A stretch of 64,000 bases of DNA from Hyphomonas sp. Its GTDB lineage: Bacteria > Pseudomonadota > Alphaproteobacteria > Caulobacterales > Hyphomonadaceae. The DNA lies in contig NZ_JALHLS010000008.1 of assembly GCF_022844445.1 (NCBI RefSeq), forward strand, positions 1 through 64,000, read 5' to 3'. The notes beneath the pieces are model-generated. The model searched no databases. It was not told where the DNA came from and saw only the letters and a list, made by a program, of their open reading frames with translations. Both the position numbers and the translations under genes were made by a program. Shown piece by piece: positions 53,109 through 61,658 of this stretch (its first letter is position 1; each line of letters starts with the position of its first letter).

Positions 53109-54494
53109 ATGACTGATACCGCCTACGATTTTGACCTGTTCGTGATCGGGGGCGGCTCCGGCGGTGTACGCGCAGGGCGGATTGCGGCGCAGACGGGCGC
53201 GAAGGTGGGAGTAGCCGAAGAGTACCGGATGGGCGGCACCTGCGTCGTCCGCGGCTGCGTGCCGAAGAAGTTCATGGTGTATGCCAGCCACTACGGCCAG
53301 GAGATAGAGCATTCTGCCGGGTACGGATGGTCTGTGGGCGATGTGTCCTATGACCACGCGAAATTCCTGGCGGGCATGCATGCAGAGGTGGACCGGCTGT
53401 CAGCGATCTATGACCGCAACCTCAAATCGGCCGGTGCCGAAATTTTCGATGACCGCGCTGAGTTCGTGGACGCGCATACGCTGCGCCTGAAGAAGAGCGG
53501 CAAGACGGTCACCGCGAAGAAGATTCTGATCGCGGCCGGCGGGCGGCCCTGGCTACCTTCGGCCGAGGAGCTGCCGGGCGTGGAGCACGTGGTTACCTCC
53601 AACGAGATGTTCCAGATGGCGACGTTGCCGAAGCGGATGCTGATCGTGGGCGGCGGCTATATCGCCGTGGAGTTTGCGCACATCTTCGCCGGGCTCGGCG
53701 TGGAAGTGTGCCTCGTCTATCGCGGCGAGACCGTGCTGCGCGGGTTTGACGAGGACGTACGCCTCGCCGTGCATGAAGGCCTGAAGGAAGCGGGCGTGCG
53801 CGTCATCACGAAAACCGTCTTTGAGCGGATTGAGAAGACGTCGGGCGGCCTGCACGTGAAAATGACCAACGAGCACGAACTGGAAACCGATGTGGTGATG
53901 ATGGCCGTGGGCCGGCGTGCCAATACGGACGGGCTAGGCTGCGAGGCGGCAGGCGTGAAGCTCGGCAAGAATGGCGAAGTGATCGTCGATGAATGGTCGC
54001 GCACGAGCGCGCAGAATATCTGGGCGGTAGGCGACGTGACCGACCGGGTGAACCTGACGCCGGTGGCGATCCGCGAAGGGCATGCGTTTGCGGACACCGA
54101 GTTCGGCGGCAAGCCCTGGCACTTCGACCATGCGGATATTGCCACCGCTGTGTTCTCGCAGCCGGAGGTGGGCACCGTGGGCATCTCGGAAGCTGAAGCG
54201 CGGAAAGCGCACGGCGCCATCGACATTTACAAGACGAAGTTCCGCCCGATGAAGAACATGCTGAACGGCGACCAGACACGCACGTTCATGAAACTGGTCG
54301 TGCGCGCCTCGGACCAACGCGTGCTGGGCGTGCATATCGTGGGCACGGACGCCGCCGAGATGATCCAGATGGCGGGCATCGCCGTGAAGATGGGCGCAAC
54401 GAAGGATGACTTCGACCGGACTTGCGCCGTACATCCGTCGGCGGCCGAGGAGCTCGTCACGCTACGGACGAAATGGGTACCGGAGGTCGCTTAG
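53109..54494 (+). CDS. gor: Glutathione-disulfide reductase
   Basis: A 461-residue flavoprotein reducing glutathione disulfide with NADPH. The FAD motif is FVIGGGSGGVRAGRIAA, the redox-active pair is GGTCVVRGCVPKKFM (C-x4-C), and the NADPH-binding motif is LIVGGGYIAVEFAHIF. The C-terminal interface HPSAAEELVTLR carries the His-Pro needed for the proton relay. The FAD-binding AVGDVTDRVNLTPVAIREG block is intact. A DinB-like gene follows 4 bases after its stop. Confidence 0.94.
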   Translation: MTDTAYDFDLFVIGGGSGGVRAGRIAAQTGAKVGVAEEYRMGGTCVVRGCVPKKFMVYASHYGQEIEHSAGYGWSVGDVSYDHAKFLAGMHAEVDRLSAIYDRNLKSAGAEIFDDRAEFVDAHTLRLKKSGKTVTAKKILIAAGGRPWLPSAEELPGVEHVVTSNEMFQMATLPKRMLIVGGGYIAVEFAHIFAGLGVEVCLVYRGETVLRGFDEDVRLAVHEGLKEAGVRVITKTVFERIEKTSGGLHVKMTNEHELETDVVMMAVGRRANTDGLGCEAAGVKLGKNGEVIVDEWSRTSAQNIWAVGDVTDRVNLTPVAIREGHAFADTEFGGKPWHFDHADIATAVFSQPEVGTVGISEAEARKAHGAIDIYKTKFRPMKNMLNGDQTRTFMKLVVRASDQRVLGVHIVGTDAAEMIQMAGIAVKMGATKDDFDRTCAVHPSAAEELVTLRTKWVPEVA

Positions 54495-54498
54495 GCAG

Positions 54499-54969
54499 GT
54501 GCCGGGCGAAGCCTATCTTCCATTGATGGCCAGGTATAATCTCTGGCAAAACGCCGCTATGACCGCTGCGTCGGGCACGTTGACCGGGGCGGAGCGGCAG
54601 GCGGACCGGGGCGTATTCTTCGGCTCGATCCAGCGGACGTTTTCGCATCTCTTCTGGGCCGACCAGGCCTGGCTTGCGCATTTCGCTGGTACGCCGGCGC
54701 CCGGCGGCGGGATCGGGGACTCGCTGGACCTGATCGATGACTGGGCGGACTTTTGCGCCGCGCGGTCTGCGCTGGACCGGCGCATCCTGGCATGGGCGGA
54801 CAGCGCGGGCGCCGGTACCGAGCGCGCGCTCAATCCCGCTTTCGTGATCCAGTTTTTCAATCACCAGACCCATCACCGCGGGCAGATTCACGCCATGCTC
54901 ACAGCAGCGGGCGCCGCTACCGAGGATACGGATATCCACAAGTTACCGAAGGCGTATCTGGATCTGTGA
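54499..54969 (+). CDS. DinB family protein
   Basis: A 156-residue four-helix-bundle protein if started at GTG 54499; ATG 54526 would remove the family's conserved first helix start (YLPLMARYNLWQN). The metal-ligand His are in SHLFWADQAW and FFNHQTHHRGQIHAML. DinB/YfiT proteins are putative metal-dependent hydrolases or thiol transferases. It is 4 bases from the glutathione reductase stop, so a thiol-linked role is suggested by context only. Confidence 0.85.
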   Translation: MPGEAYLPLMARYNLWQNAAMTAASGTLTGAERQADRGVFFGSIQRTFSHLFWADQAWLAHFAGTPAPGGGIGDSLDLIDDWADFCAARSALDRRILAWADSAGAGTERALNPAFVIQFFNHQTHHRGQIHAMLTAAGAATEDTDIHKLPKAYLDL

Positions 54970-55016: not shown

Positions 55017-56327
55017 TCAGTGTCCTGAGCTTCCGCCTTCGCTACGCACCTTCAGTTCCAGTGCGACCTGCTTCAGACTGTCGCGGATGGCCTTTAGGCC
55101 GCCGCCGCGGCCGGCATGGGCGAGGAGCTGGCGCCACGCGGGTTGGTCGTCCTCCGGCGCTTTCACGGCGAAGTGGGCGGAGCGCGGGAGCGCTGCAGTC
55201 ATAAGGGATTTCGAGAGCGGAAAGCCTGCTATCGCGTCATAGACGCCGTTACGCGCGTCGCCTTCAAAGGTGGACTGTTCGTTGCGGTTGACTGCGTTGA
55301 AGAGGACCGAAAGGGCTGGGCGTTTGGATTCCTCTATCTGGTCCTTGATGACGAGGTTCAGGAGGCGCACGCCGCGCAGGGAGTAGATGTCGGCGTGCAT
55401 CGGCGCGATGACGCGGTCGGCGGCTTCGAGGGCGCAGCGCGTGAGGAAGGTGGCGTTTGGGTTTGTGTCGAAGACGATGAGATCGTATTCGCTGCGATAA
55501 TGATCGATAGAGCGCAGGAAGTGCTGCTTGATCGCCGCGAGGTCGTCGCGGTCATTCGCGAAGGCGTATTTCGAAATCTCGAACTGGCCGCTGATCAGGT
55601 CGAGGCGTCCCGGCGGGCCGTCCGTGCCCAGAATGGAATGGACATAACTGTCGCGCGCGGCGGGCGTGAAGGGCGCGATGGTGAGGCTGAGCCAGTTCTC
55701 GGCCGGCGAGACGGCATCTTTCGCGTGCAGGCGCGAGCGCTCGAACAGCGAGATGACAGAGCGGTCGGCGCCGGAGGAGGCGTCAGCATGCTCCATGCTG
55801 AAGAAGGTCTGGGTGAGGTTGTATTGCGGATCGAGGTCGATCAGCAGGACGCGGCCACCGAAGTTTTCCTGCCAGGCGCCGGAGAGCTGGGCGGTGACGG
55901 TGGTTTTGCCGACGCCGCCTTTCAGGTTCATCACGGCGACGACCGGGCATTTCTTGCGGTAGGCAGCCTGCGTTTCGGCGACGAGCTGGTCCATGCCGTC
56001 GGGCATGGCGGAGGAGAGGCGCAGGTGGGGCTGGACTTCGGTCTTGAAGAAGCCGTTCAGGCGCGCCTTGTCTATCTGGTAGGGGATGAGCCGGATGCCG
56101 GTCGCTTTCGCGGTTTCGACGTCCTGGCGCACGGTTCTGGACCGCACTGACGCTGCGGAAACCAACACGATGACGGCAAAGGCCGTGCTGATGGCCTCGT
56201 CAGCCTCGGCCCGGTTCGGCTCGCCGACGACGTAGCGGTCGGCAATTGCAGCCACGCGCAGCGCCTCGTGCAGCTGCAGCAGGGCATCCGGATCGGCGCC
56301 GGAATGGCTGATATAGACATGCGGCAT
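55017..56327 (-). CDS. TIR domain-ParA/Soj-type ATPase fusion protein
   Basis: A 436-residue protein. Residues about 1-120 form a TIR-like domain: VYISHSGADPD (first strand), AVIVLVSAASVRSRTVRQDV and then ETAKATGIRLIPYQID. At the position of the NADase Glu it has Asp69, with Glu71 two residues later. Residues about 126-436 are a ParA/MinD-type P-loop ATPase: Walker A LKGGVGKTT (135-143), LIDLDPQYNL, and Walker B IVFDTNPN (285-291). ParA ATPases dimerise on ATP and bind DNA or membranes. No parB partner and no defence genes are nearby. A sensing or defence role is possible, but unproven. Confidence 0.85.
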   Translation of the reverse strand: MPHVYISHSGADPDALLQLHEALRVAAIADRYVVGEPNRAEADEAISTAFAVIVLVSAASVRSRTVRQDVETAKATGIRLIPYQIDKARLNGFFKTEVQPHLRLSSAMPDGMDQLVAETQAAYRKKCPVVAVMNLKGGVGKTTVTAQLSGAWQENFGGRVLLIDLDPQYNLTQTFFSMEHADASSGADRSVISLFERSRLHAKDAVSPAENWLSLTIAPFTPAARDSYVHSILGTDGPPGRLDLISGQFEISKYAFANDRDDLAAIKQHFLRSIDHYRSEYDLIVFDTNPNATFLTRCALEAADRVIAPMHADIYSLRGVRLLNLVIKDQIEESKRPALSVLFNAVNRNEQSTFEGDARNGVYDAIAGFPLSKSLMTAALPRSAHFAVKAPEDDQPAWRQLLAHAGRGGGLKAIRDSLKQVALELKVRSEGGSSGH

Positions 56328-56481
56328 GGCGCATCAGTCCCCGTCTCTGACCCTTGATTCCCCTGAGCCTTTTAGCCGCCGAAAACCATGATCGGCCAGC
56401 TATCTGCTGTGAAATTATGGTGAAACTTGAGCATGGCGCCGCCATGTGATTTATGCCCCGCAGAACCGGAGTACCCCTGTA

Positions 56482-57858
56482 ATGACCTGGCACCCCTCTG
56501 ATTGGCGCAAACTGCCCGCGCAGCACATCCCGCAGGATTATCCTGACGCGGGCGCGCTGACGGCTGTCGAAAACCGTCTCCGGAGCTATCCGCCACTGGT
56601 TTTTGCAGGCGAGGCACGCCGCCTGAAGACGCGCCTCGCCGAGGTTGCGGCGGGCAATGCCTTCCTGCTGCAGGGCGGCGACTGCGCCGAGAGCTTCAAG
56701 GAATTCCACCCGGACAATATCCGCGACACGTTCCGCGTTATCCTGCAGATGGCGGTGGTGCTGACCTTTGCGGCGGCCAAACCGGTCGTGAAGGTGGGCC
56801 GGATTGCGGGCCAGTTCGGCAAGCCGCGGTCCGAGCCGATCGAGACCATCGATGGCGTGACGCTGCCCTCTTACCGGGGCGACAATATCAACGGCATGGA
56901 GTTCACGCCGGAGAGCCGGATTCCGGACCCTGAGCGCCTTGTGCAGGCGTACTCGCAGTCGGCGGCGACGCTGAACCTGCTGCGCGCGTTCAGCCAGGGC
57001 GGCTATGCCAGCCTTGCGAACGTGCAGCGTTGGATGCTGGGCTTCGTCGACCGCAGCCCGCAAGGCGAGCGCTACCAGAAACTGGCGGACCAGATCTCCG
57101 CTTCGCTGCGCTTCATGCAGGCTGTGGGTCTTAATGCTGAGACCGTTCCGCAGATGGCGCAGGTGGAATTCTATACGAGCCACGAGGCGTTGTTGCTCGG
57201 TTATGAGGAAGCGATGACGCGCATCGATTCCACCAGCGGCGACTGGTATGACACCTCGGCCCACATGCTGTGGATCGGCCACCGGACCCGCCAGCTCGAT
57301 CATGCGCACGTGAACTTCTGCAAGGGCATCAGGAACCCGATTGGCATCAAGTGCGGCCCCGGCATGGAGCCGGACGAGTTGATCCGCCTAATCGAGACGC
57401 TGAACCCGAAGGACGAAGCCGGCCGCATCACGCTGATCTCGCGCTTCGGCTCCGAAGGCGTGGCGAAGGGCCTGCCTCCGTTGGCGCGCGCGGTGAAGAA
57501 ATCCGGCCGCACGGTCGTCTGGTCTTGTGATCCGATGCACGGCAACACATTAAAGACCGGCACCGGCTTCAAGACGCGTCCGGTGGACCGCGTGCTGAGC
57601 GAAGTGCGCCAGTTCATCGACATCCTGCCGGCCGAAGGCTGCTATCCCGGAGGGGTGCATATCGAGATGACCGGCCAGGACGTGACCGAGTGCATCGGCG
57701 GCGCGCAGGCGATCTCGGAAGAAGATCTCTCGAGCCGCTACCACACACACTGCGACCCACGCCTCAATGGCGAGCAGGCGTTGGAACTCGCGTTCCTTGT
57801 GGCGGAGAAGCTGCAGGCGGTCGAAGCCGGCGGCGAGGGCGCACGCAAGGCGGGCTAA
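56482..57858 (+). CDS. Class II 3-deoxy-7-phosphoheptulonate (DAHP) synthase
   Basis: A 458-residue class II (AroAII-type) DAHP synthase, the first shikimate-pathway enzyme. [37 protein letters not shown], the [11 protein letters not shown] region, the [11 protein letters not shown] loop and [11 protein letters not shown] are characteristic of the class that also includes plant and actinobacterial enzymes. The start [14 protein letters not shown] is the usual N-terminus; ATG 56482 fits it. It is divergent from the TIR-ParA gene, and supplies chorismate synthesis together with aroC. Confidence 0.93.
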
Positions 57859-59149: not shown

Positions 59150-59237
59150 GGCGCCCGTTTCGGGAATCCCTTTGACCCGTTTTGGCAGCGCGCTACGCCT
59201 AGGGCCGGATAAGTGGCTATCCGGGGACCGGGACGCG

Positions 59238-61658
59238 ATGCTGACACCCGAACGCGAACGCACGGCACTGAAGCTGTTCTTCGAAGCCGTCGAGCTTGCG
59301 GGCGAGGCGCGGCTTGACTGGATCGAGAAGGCCTGCAGGGGCGACAGCGAACTTTTGGGCCGCGTGATCGCGCTGATGGAGGCCGACAGCGAGGTGACCT
59401 CCATGGTCGCCGAGATCGAGGGCGCACCGCTGGAGATGCCGCCGGACCAGATCGGCGTCTACCGGCTGGAGGCGCTGATCGGGGCGGGCGGCATGGGCTC
59501 GGTCTACCGCGCGCGGCGGGCGGACGGATTGTTCGACCAGACAGTGGCGATAAAGTTCATCCGGGCGAAGCAGGGGGCGTATGATCTCGGGCCGCTGATC
59601 GCCGCCGAGCGCCGCGCGCTGGCGCGGATGGATCACGAATCCATCGCGCGCATCCTGGATGGCGGGGTGACGCAGACCGGGCTCAGCTACCTCGTGATGG
59701 AATATGTGGCGGGCGAGCCGCTGGACGATGACTGCGAGGCGCGCCAGCTGGATGTGGCAGCGCGCGTGGCACTGGTGCGGCAGGTGGCGGGGGCGCTGGC
59801 TCATGCGCACCAGTCACGCATTGTTCATTGCGACGTGAAGCCGTCCAACATTCTCGTGACGCCAGGCGGGCGCGCGAAGCTGATCGATTTCGGGATTGCG
59901 CGGCTGCAGGAAGTGGCGGCCGCTGACATGATCGACGCCGTGACGCGCGCCTATGCAAGCCCGGAGCGTTGCCGCAGGCAGGCGGCGACGCTGGCGGATG
60001 ATGTCTACGCGCTGGCGGTGACGCTGTATGAATTGCTGGCGGGGAAATTGCCCTGGCACGATCCGGGCCGTCCTGACCTTGGCGCGGCGCCTGAGCTGCT
60101 GCGGATCGAGGGCCCGGCGCGCAATCCGGAAGACCTGTCGGCCATCCTGTGGAAGGCGTTGTCGCCGGACCCGGAAGAGCGTTATCGCAGCATCGAGGCC
60201 TTCGATGCAGACCTTGCGCGTTGGCAGAGCGTGCAGGCGGTGAGCGCTGTGCCGCGCACGTTTGCCTACCTCTCGCGCCGGTTTGCGCAGCGCCGGCCTG
60301 TGGCGCTCGCCTCGATGGCGGGCGGTGTGGCGGCGACCTTTGCGGCGCTGGGCATCATCACGCATCTTTATCTGGATGCGGAGCAATCGCGCCGGAACGC
60401 CGACCAGCGCTTCACGCAGCTGCGGAGTCTGGCGGGTTTCATGATCTTTGACCTGAACAGTCAGCTGGAACAGGTGCCGGGGGCAACGCCGGCGCGGCTG
60501 GCGATGTCGGAAAAGGCGCAGGACTATCTAGATGCGCTGGGCGCCTCGGCGGGCGGCAATGCGGCGCTGCAGGCTGAGGCGGCGACGGGGCTCGTACGCC
60601 TCGCCGAAGTGCAGGGCGTCCCGAGCCGGCCGAACCTTGGCCTCGGGCCGCTGGCGGTGGAGAACCTCGAGCGAGCCATTGTCTCGCTGGACCAGCTGAT
60701 TGCCGAGACACCCGGCGACCCTTCGCTCAGGCTGGCGCGAGGGCGCGCGCTCTATTTCCTTGCCATCACCAAGGCGTCGTTGGAGCAGGACACGGCGATG
60801 CAGCTGGATCTTGCCCGGCGGGCGGAGCCGGATGTGCTGGCCGCACTGGCGCAACCAGGCGAGATTCCGCCAGGTGAAGTCCATTCCGTGTTGGTGGGTA
60901 TACGGATGACCATTGCGGACGCGGTGCAGACAGAGGGCGATCTCGAAGAAGCCGTGAACATCCGTGAGGCGGAGGAGGCAAGGTTGCTGAACCTGACGCC
61001 AGATGAGCGTGCGGGCATGGACTTCGACTTCGAGGCGGGCCGGGTCTCGGCGCTACTTGGAGACGGCTACTACTATCTCAAACGGATCGAGCACGCGCAG
61101 GCCGCCTACCAGCGCGGGGCGGGCCATTTCGAGGCCGGTATCGCCAAGGCGCCGCTGAACCGGCGGCTGCTGACAGGCCTGCATTATGCGCACTATTCGC
61201 TGTCGAGTACGCGGGCGGATCTCGGCGACCTCGCCGGCGGGCTAAGGGAGGCCGAACTGTCGATGGACACGGCGCGCCAGTTGCTGGCCTGGGATCCGAC
61301 CGACCGTCTGGCGCAGCGCCTTGCCGAAGTTTCAGAGGGACAGATTGCGCTGATGCTGAACATCAACGGACGGCCGGAAGAGGCGCTTTCGATCGTTGAA
61401 CGGCAGCTGGAAGGCTACCGGGCCCAGGCGTCGGCCAATCCGCAGGACGGCGATGCTGTGCGGCGGGTGGCCGTGCCGATGCGCGGACGGGCGGAGATGA
61501 TGTTTGATGCGCGCGGGCGCGAGGCGGGCTGCCGGGGGGTGGAGGAAGCGCGCGCGGCGTGGAAGGCCGTCGAGGACAAGTGGGGCCTTTCGGAATTTGA
61601 CCGGACGAACGACATCGCCCTGCTTGACGATCTCGCCGCAAAGGGACGCTGCGGCTAG
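59238..61658 (+). CDS. Transmembrane serine/threonine protein kinase with TPR-like C-terminus
   Basis: About 806 residues (ATG 59238; TTG 59172 would add 22). The kinase domain has a complete glycine loop IGAGGMGSVYRAR, VAIKF (Lys106), catalytic HCDVKPSNIL (non-RD, Cys before Asp199), and DFG in KLIDFGIAR. A membrane helix follows (ALASMAGGVAATFAALGIITHLYL), then about 430 residues of repeated helical sequence resembling TPRs. A preceding N-terminal region (TALKLFFEAVELAGEARLDW) is typical of kinases paired with ECF sigma factors. It converges on such a sigma gene with a 4-base overlap. Confidence 0.9.
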   Translation: MLTPERERTALKLFFEAVELAGEARLDWIEKACRGDSELLGRVIALMEADSEVTSMVAEIEGAPLEMPPDQIGVYRLEALIGAGGMGSVYRARRADGLFDQTVAIKFIRAKQGAYDLGPLIAAERRALARMDHESIARILDGGVTQTGLSYLVMEYVAGEPLDDDCEARQLDVAARVALVRQVAGALAHAHQSRIVHCDVKPSNILVTPGGRAKLIDFGIARLQEVAAADMIDAVTRAYASPERCRRQAATLADDVYALAVTLYELLAGKLPWHDPGRPDLGAAPELLRIEGPARNPEDLSAILWKALSPDPEERYRSIEAFDADLARWQSVQAVSAVPRTFAYLSRRFAQRRPVALASMAGGVAATFAALGIITHLYLDAEQSRRNADQRFTQLRSLAGFMIFDLNSQLEQVPGATPARLAMSEKAQDYLDALGASAGGNAALQAEAATGLVRLAEVQGVPSRPNLGLGPLAVENLERAIVSLDQLIAETPGDPSLRLARGRALYFLAITKASLEQDTAMQLDLARRAEPDVLAALAQPGEIPPGEVHSVLVGIRMTIADAVQTEGDLEEAVNIREAEEARLLNLTPDERAGMDFDFEAGRVSALLGDGYYYLKRIEHAQAAYQRGAGHFEAGIAKAPLNRRLLTGLHYAHYSLSSTRADLGDLAGGLREAELSMDTARQLLAWDPTDRLAQRLAEVSEGQIALMLNINGRPEEALSIVERQLEGYRAQASANPQDGDAVRRVAVPMRGRAEMMFDARGREAGCRGVEEARAAWKAVEDKWGLSEFDRTNDIALLDDLAAKGRCG

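Follow-up and report, generated by a model that had tools for sequence, protein, structure and literature searches.

What does a protein that joins a TIR domain to a ParA-type ATPase do in the cell, and is it an immune enzyme? The question is raised by a single gene of 436 codons (55017..56327, minus strand) in a window of 64,000 nucleotides from a contig of Hyphomonas sp. (NZ_JALHLS010000008.1). A first-pass annotation, made from the letters of this window, had described an orphan fusion that might couple ParA-type behaviour to NAD depletion. We interpret the product as a vertically inherited ParA/MinD-type positioning ATPase whose TIR domain is non-catalytic and acts in a cargo or scaffold role, and we assign this interpretation a probability of about 0.5. 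Its task is probably to hold or place other molecules within the cell, and not to fight viruses.

The fusion itself is genuine: as proposed, a TIR N-terminus and a full ParA/MinD ATPase occur in one protein, and its full length is conserved among homologues. The TIR domain occupies residues 1-126 (55950..56327, minus strand). Pfam TIR_2 matches residues 4-87 of the window protein with 35.8 bits against a cut-off of 28 (E 1.3e-8), and the first ~120 residues therefore match a TIR by profile as well as by fold; two relatives, P0104 (27.6) and the Ponticaulis member (25.9), lie slightly under this cut-off. Structure prediction, which had been suggested as a check, gave an AF2 model of the TIR alone with a pLDDT of 93.4. 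Foldseek and VIA comparisons of this predicted structure with the PDB returned TIR folds, placing the model near SPARTA, plant and SARM1 TIRs, and the Foldseek matches also included the TIR scaffolds of the MyD88 and MAL filaments. The ATPase domain (residues 127-436; 55020..55949, minus strand) is complete, with a ParA fold, a Walker B motif and the loop NLKGGVGKT at residues 134-142 (55902..55928, minus strand), a deviant Walker A loop that bears the signature Lys136. Each of K136, K141, T142, D164, D166 and D287 is invariant in 112/112 full-length close homologues, a set that includes the window protein and consists of the proteins of at least 425 aa among P0001-P0121, nine shorter ones being left out. 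Some sources name the protein as the cellulose ATPase BcsQ, an identity that TIGR03371 does not support (44.4 against a cut-off of 157.85); the Pfam BcsQ model exceeds its own cut-off, but over residues 129-184 only.

The distribution of the gene is that of a resident of the genus. Some match was present in 104/105 family genomes, the weak ones covering the ParA part, and a match spanning the whole query in 64 of the 105: 41/42 genomes of the window's genus, 17/29 of g3, 2/3 of g2, 1/1 of g6, 1/7 of g7 and 2/3 of g9. Beyond these 64, fragments were detected in G017 and G023 and a divergent TIR-ParA in G033. Each of the 41 genus genomes has one full-length row, and the sole miss, G053, has a completeness of 83% and shows no aroG either at E<=1e-100. 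An internal stop was marked on 6 of the 64 rows; in four genus rows it is simply where the gene terminates (427 or 432 aa), and the other two belong to the g3 genomes G012 and G031. Occurrence at full length across the genus, in named isolates (H. polymorpha PS728, H. jannaschiana VP2 and H. johnsonii MHS-2) and in single-contig genomes dispels the earlier concern that the fusion was an assembly artefact. The named loci come from Hyphomonas, Henriciella and Ponticaulis, together with some bins whose titles go no further than class, order or family. Four records titled Acidobacteria or Candidatus Sulfopaludibacter (L033, L034, L036 and L041) encode proteins 86-93% identical; L033, L034 and L041 show the Hyphomonas gene order, L036 being too short and omitted, and these records are perhaps mislabelled bins.

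The catalytic Glu of TIR NADases sits in the third helix, in the motif S-x-W-V-x-x-E. At the corresponding column, the 112 full-length close homologues have Asp in 89, Gln in 22, Tyr in one and Glu in none; in the window protein the alignment places Asp69 there (codon 56121..56123, minus strand). Residue 71 is Glu in 91/112, so that a shifted alignment is possible and the Asp69 assignment is one made by alignment. Among 84 hand-chosen TIR-bearing rows, Glu was absent from all 27 of Hyphomonas/Henriciella type, present in 34/36 further database rows and in 15/19 f3 rows, and also kept in the Ponticaulis row and the g4 row. A tree of the ParA domain requires at least four switches between Glu and not-Glu. 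We read them as losses, one in the Hyphomonas clade and three within f3, although the count itself gives no direction. These repeated changes, and the 0/112 among close homologues, make the Glu look dispensable while the protein is kept. The score of the TIR profile is not strictly tied to the residue. Four relatives with Glu gave E values of 1.8e-18 to 3.9e-20 and a fifth 9.2e-14, and two f3 core rows (2.5e-10) and the Ponticaulis row (1.5e-5) scored more weakly despite having it; without Glu, the values were 1.8e-8 for L113, 1.3e-8 for the window protein and 4.5e-6 for P0104. The TIR half thus appears, from its sequence, to have lost the NAD-destroying residue.

Evidence of constraint was sought by the Nei-Gojobori method in 49 of 53 genes (omitting one truncated gene and three whose match continues beyond the stop). 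Median dN/dS was 0.28 for the TIR and 0.20 for the ParA domain over 333 pairs with pS <0.6. Between the window and 12 listed relatives among L033-L046 (79-93% identity) the ranges were 0.13-0.25 and 0.07-0.13, respectively, which indicates that the TIR is kept under constraint. Against seven farther relatives they rose to 0.24-0.68, the highest TIR value being that with L065 (0.68), and to 0.18-0.34, the larger distances being rough because of saturation. Both halves are under purifying selection, the TIR less so, and the TIR evolves faster (mean identity 57.5% versus 71.9% for ParA in 1000 sampled pairs). Because both halves are constrained in this unequal way, an active NADase in the window protein is unlikely and a retained, non-catalytic TIR likely; the rise in TIR dN/dS towards farther relatives also fits slow decay.

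A search for the same domain order with its gene neighbourhoods, again as had been suggested, found the fusion across the family and order and a constant neighbour beside it. This is the divergent aroG (56482..57858, plus strand), a class II DAHP synthase (TIGR01358, 6e-220), which adjoins the TIR-ParA gene in 50/53 loci (52 fetched plus the window, without L036), among them loci of Hyphomonas, Henriciella and Ponticaulis, the other three having <520 bases of contig upstream. On the other side the nearest predicted gene is gor in 37/52 loci and lies on the opposite strand in 50/52; the window's own genes were named aroG, gor, rpiA and glmU from NCBIfam equivalogs. The gene was rightly called an orphan: neither parB nor a recognised defence gene lies at the window locus, and nothing in the conserved neighbourhood was recognised as a signalling gene. 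Within the genus, TIR-ParA behaves like a core gene passed on vertically, and this, together with the missing Glu, speaks against the earlier suggestion that the window protein depletes NAD. The spacer towards aroG (56328..56481, no strand assigned) contains a block strongly conserved in Hyphomonas. By eye, a similar block (TGTGGTAAAACTTG) lies upstream of aroG in 7/12 spacers from genomes without TIR-ParA, so it probably belongs to aroG, and a regulatory element shared by the two genes was rejected. Patterns for CtrA, LexA and SciP were absent from 50/50 spacers; GANTC was present in 38/50 and is not independent evidence. Some genes nearby are peculiar to few loci. A DinB-family protein (54406-54969, plus strand; PF05163, E 2.7e-14) lies between gor and TIR-ParA, and its cluster occurs only in the window and L034 among the 53 loci. 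At 59172-61658 (plus strand) an 827-aa protein with a Ser/Thr kinase domain (PF00069) adjoins an ORF that resembles an ECF sigma factor by eye; in the clustering of neighbourhoods neither is common to other loci.

The gene is missing from 10/29 g3 genomes. In all 12 of the opened genomes without it (nine of these ten and three of the six g7 genomes), gor and aroG are adjacent, 103-240 bases apart; the absence is therefore clean, and the nine g3 cases indicate that the gene is dispensable in g3. In g4, g5 and g10, aroG and gor are separated by a gene for a TIR-less ParA (283-285 aa) and a 122-aa ORF, which overlap by 4 bases in 4/4 loci (L141, L142, L143 and L145) and are possibly another undescribed ParA pair. 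At L120 TIR-ParA adjoins aroG, while a ParA with a 151-aa ORF adjoins gor, which suggests that the interval formerly contained both.

More distant relatives carry an additional gene. An order-wide search matched 61/249 genomes at 1e-15, including 25 of another family (f3), and we analysed 21 distant loci (20 regions from 19 of these 25 genomes, plus G033). The TIR-ParA gene adjoins aroG in 15/21, directly or across one ORF, which is MgtC/DUF4010-like in L115, the one tested. In 20/20 loci the end of TIR-ParA is accompanied by a same-strand ORF of 79-146 aa, whose start falls in the range from 59 bases before the TIR-ParA stop to 4 bases after it; in 14/20 the two genes overlap by 4 bases. A profile of this partner matches 21/21 distant loci, of which 19 were used to build it; the two held out gave 1.4e-28 (L118) and 4.7e-5 (L117). 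The 19 profile members have net charges of +6 to +17, and none of the eight tested reached the cut-off of a Pfam family. The profile matched 0/53 Hyphomonas-type loci (best E 2.4), and a genome-wide search at E<=1, which could miss a short or very diverged partner, found it in 0/8 Hyphomonas genomes and recovered it in the controls G033, G205 and G146. The description of the system as self-contained thus stands for Hyphomonas, where no partner was found, and fails for the distant relatives. The TIR-ParA/partner pairing in the latter is new here. Passages of PMC10241942 describe A/D ATPases as linked to their cargo by a partner with a charged N-terminus, and by analogy the small basic partner would link distant TIR-ParA to cargo. 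The same source mentions orphan A/D ATPases with no known partner, so the missing gene weakens no more than the claim that the system is complete. At 1e-20, class and phylum searches matched 16/385 and 23/398 genomes, own-genus genomes included; outside the order the listed matches (up to four candidates scored per genome) cover the ParA part only or the TIR part only, and fusions may also occur there.

The history of the copies was approached with a quick ParA-domain tree, rooted on a long-branched outgroup of TIR-less ParA, on which the aroG-linked copies do not fall together. An AU test does not reject their single origin (p 0.239, 42 rows versus 4; excluding four rows with long branches and the three of the outgroup). 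With the tree splitting the copies and the test not rejecting their union, orthology of the Hyphomonas and Terricaulis-type copies is a matter of synteny only. The copies are most simply explained by an ancient pair of TIR-ParA and partner, of which an aroG-linked copy was inherited vertically. As far as alignments and profiles can tell, the partner and the Glu are gone in Hyphomonas and Henriciella, and the ATPase residues are strictly kept.

The fold of the TIR, close to those of SPARTA, plant and SARM1, invites the view of an immune-type effector, in which ParA would sense phage or plasmid DNA and switch on a TIR NADase, leading to abortive infection. Most distant TIR-ParA proteins keep the Glu, the four strongest TIR scores cited above are theirs, and some have suggestive neighbours. 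At L116:6295-12202, a possible defence island, a Glu-bearing TIR-ParA and its partner have an integrase of phage type, AbiTii and a further TIR protein as neighbours; L110, also with Glu and partner, has a predicted pPIWI-associating nuclease ~3 kb away. Judged by selected neighbours of L099 (an EamA transporter), L110, L112 (1-deoxyxylulose-5-phosphate synthase), L116 and L125 (a helicase-like ORF matching RecD-type PADLOC models), two of the six loci away from aroG, which include L111, look defence-linked. For the window protein, however, the effector view is improbable: no close homologue has the Glu, the gene is syntenic across nearly the whole genus, and PADLOC yields one weak match, to the P-loop. 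Nor did searches with P0001 or A2 reveal any TIR-ParA among their matches on plasmids, phages and viral contigs. None of 2519 matching plasmid records and none of 34 phage records covered 80% of P0001, a mobile origin of the window copy being rejected on these counts, and among 80 of the 201 viral loci no match began before query residue 101; for the Glu-bearing relative P0122, 1/596 plasmid records covers 81%, at 24% identity and from residue 81 on. In a broader version, TIR-ParA and its partner would form a hitherto undescribed conflict system of two genes, most evident in the order Caulobacterales, with a TIR NADase under the control of a ParA/MinD-type ATPase and the partner. Copies with a catalytic TIR would in some genomes keep company with integrases and defence genes, and Hyphomonas and Henriciella would have domesticated the system into a core protein for positioning or scaffolding that has no catalytic activity. 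We entertain this version tentatively, as rather unlikely.

The protein may instead be a TIR scaffold or signalling hub in which ParA is a mere nucleotide-driven dimerisation switch and moves no cargo. Purifying selection on a TIR without Glu, the MyD88 and MAL filaments among its structural matches and the partner gene not found in Hyphomonas would all agree with such a hub, yet every ParA motif is invariant, which may be more than a simple dimeriser needs, and the conserved neighbourhood holds no recognised signalling gene; we consider it unlikely. Alternatively, the gene could be a domesticated remnant of a mobile TIR-ParA/partner module that is drifting or slowly decaying, as the missing partner and Glu, the faster divergence of the TIR and the gaps in g3 might imply. 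This is quite improbable given selection on both domains and retention in 41/42 genus genomes. Finally, regulation of the divergent aroG, or of the flux through its product, would account for the constant linkage, which extends from Hyphomonas, Henriciella and Ponticaulis to 15/21 more distant loci. We regard it as very unlikely, for the spacer block has its counterpart in 7/12 genomes without TIR-ParA and the Pfam scan of the window protein shows no HTH domain.

For the reading that we prefer, a positioning ATPase with a non-catalytic TIR, the following mechanism can be envisaged; its direction is that of the oligomeric assembly or patterning also raised by the first-pass annotation. ATP-bound ParA domains would dimerise via the Lys136 loop and the dimer would bind a matrix, presumably the nucleoid and less likely the membrane. 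The N-terminal TIR, not cleaving NAD, may self-associate or bind a cargo or polar factor by contacts of the TIR-TIR type, replacing the separate partner protein encoded by more distant relatives; ATP hydrolysis would then cause release and generate a moving or polarised pattern. It is family membership alone that suggests cell positioning by the Hyphomonas protein. Hyphomonas neptunium, for which deletion and fluorescent-fusion strains are published (PMC6650430), offers a context: its authors suggest that ParA is sequestered at the bud pole by an as yet unknown polar factor, and the TIR-ParA gene is a candidate for this factor, an identity that we do not claim. That the fusion may be undescribed agrees with the literature, in which no TIR-ParA as such was found by title or abstract opening in a search that took in few subscription papers. 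Here an enzyme-type immune domain has apparently turned non-catalytic while the fusion protein became a core gene.

Comparison with known systems delimits what is shared. The TIR fold is common to the window protein and to ThsB of Thoeris, the TIR-APAZ of SPARTA, AbTir and PdTIR; unlike these bacterial TIR NADases, the window clade has Asp or Gln (Tyr once) in the Glu column and no recognised defence partner, and the ThsB_TIR profile gives no support for an identity with ThsB (15.6 bits against a cut-off of 21.2). CpaE/TadZ of tad pili has the same layout, an N-terminal flavodoxin-like (receiver-like) domain followed by a ParA/MinD ATPase, and PDB 3fkq, titled as an NtrC-like two-domain protein and presumably linked to TadZ, was the Foldseek match of rank 45. 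The N-terminus of the window protein, in contrast, is a TIR by profile and fold, and TIGR03815 (30.1 against a cut-off of 154.45) does not support CpaE/TadZ. The TIR-less ParA and 122-aa pair of L141, L142, L143 and L145 occupies the same chromosomal interval, lacks a TIR and has a small protein that is unlike the TIR-ParA partner by eye. A ParABS ATPase is likewise unsupported, no parB being recognised beside TIR-ParA. The genome does have a genuine parA-parB pair, on a different contig, C1 (L174), and a second ParA-like ATPase of the same genome lies at L175:3543-5014, overlapped by 4 bases by a 172-aa ORF whose product has no NCBIfam match. With this pair and this second gene present, TIR-ParA is an additional ATPase; the single-contig genome G042 has the same arrangement of other ParA genes. 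With the A/D ATPases ParA/Soj, McdA, MipZ and PomZ the window protein shares the deviant Walker A domain, fold and motifs. These ATPases have partners, and ParA/MinD ATPases obtain their cargos via separate partner proteins, as described in passages of PMC10241942; the distant TIR-ParA relatives likewise have their small basic gene. The Hyphomonas protein differs from them in its N-terminal TIR, in having no partner gene at its locus and in being linked to housekeeping genes, with no recognisable cargo among them, and a ParA family that carries a fused TIR, and that in one lineage lacks the partner, would exemplify a novel means of cargo selection.
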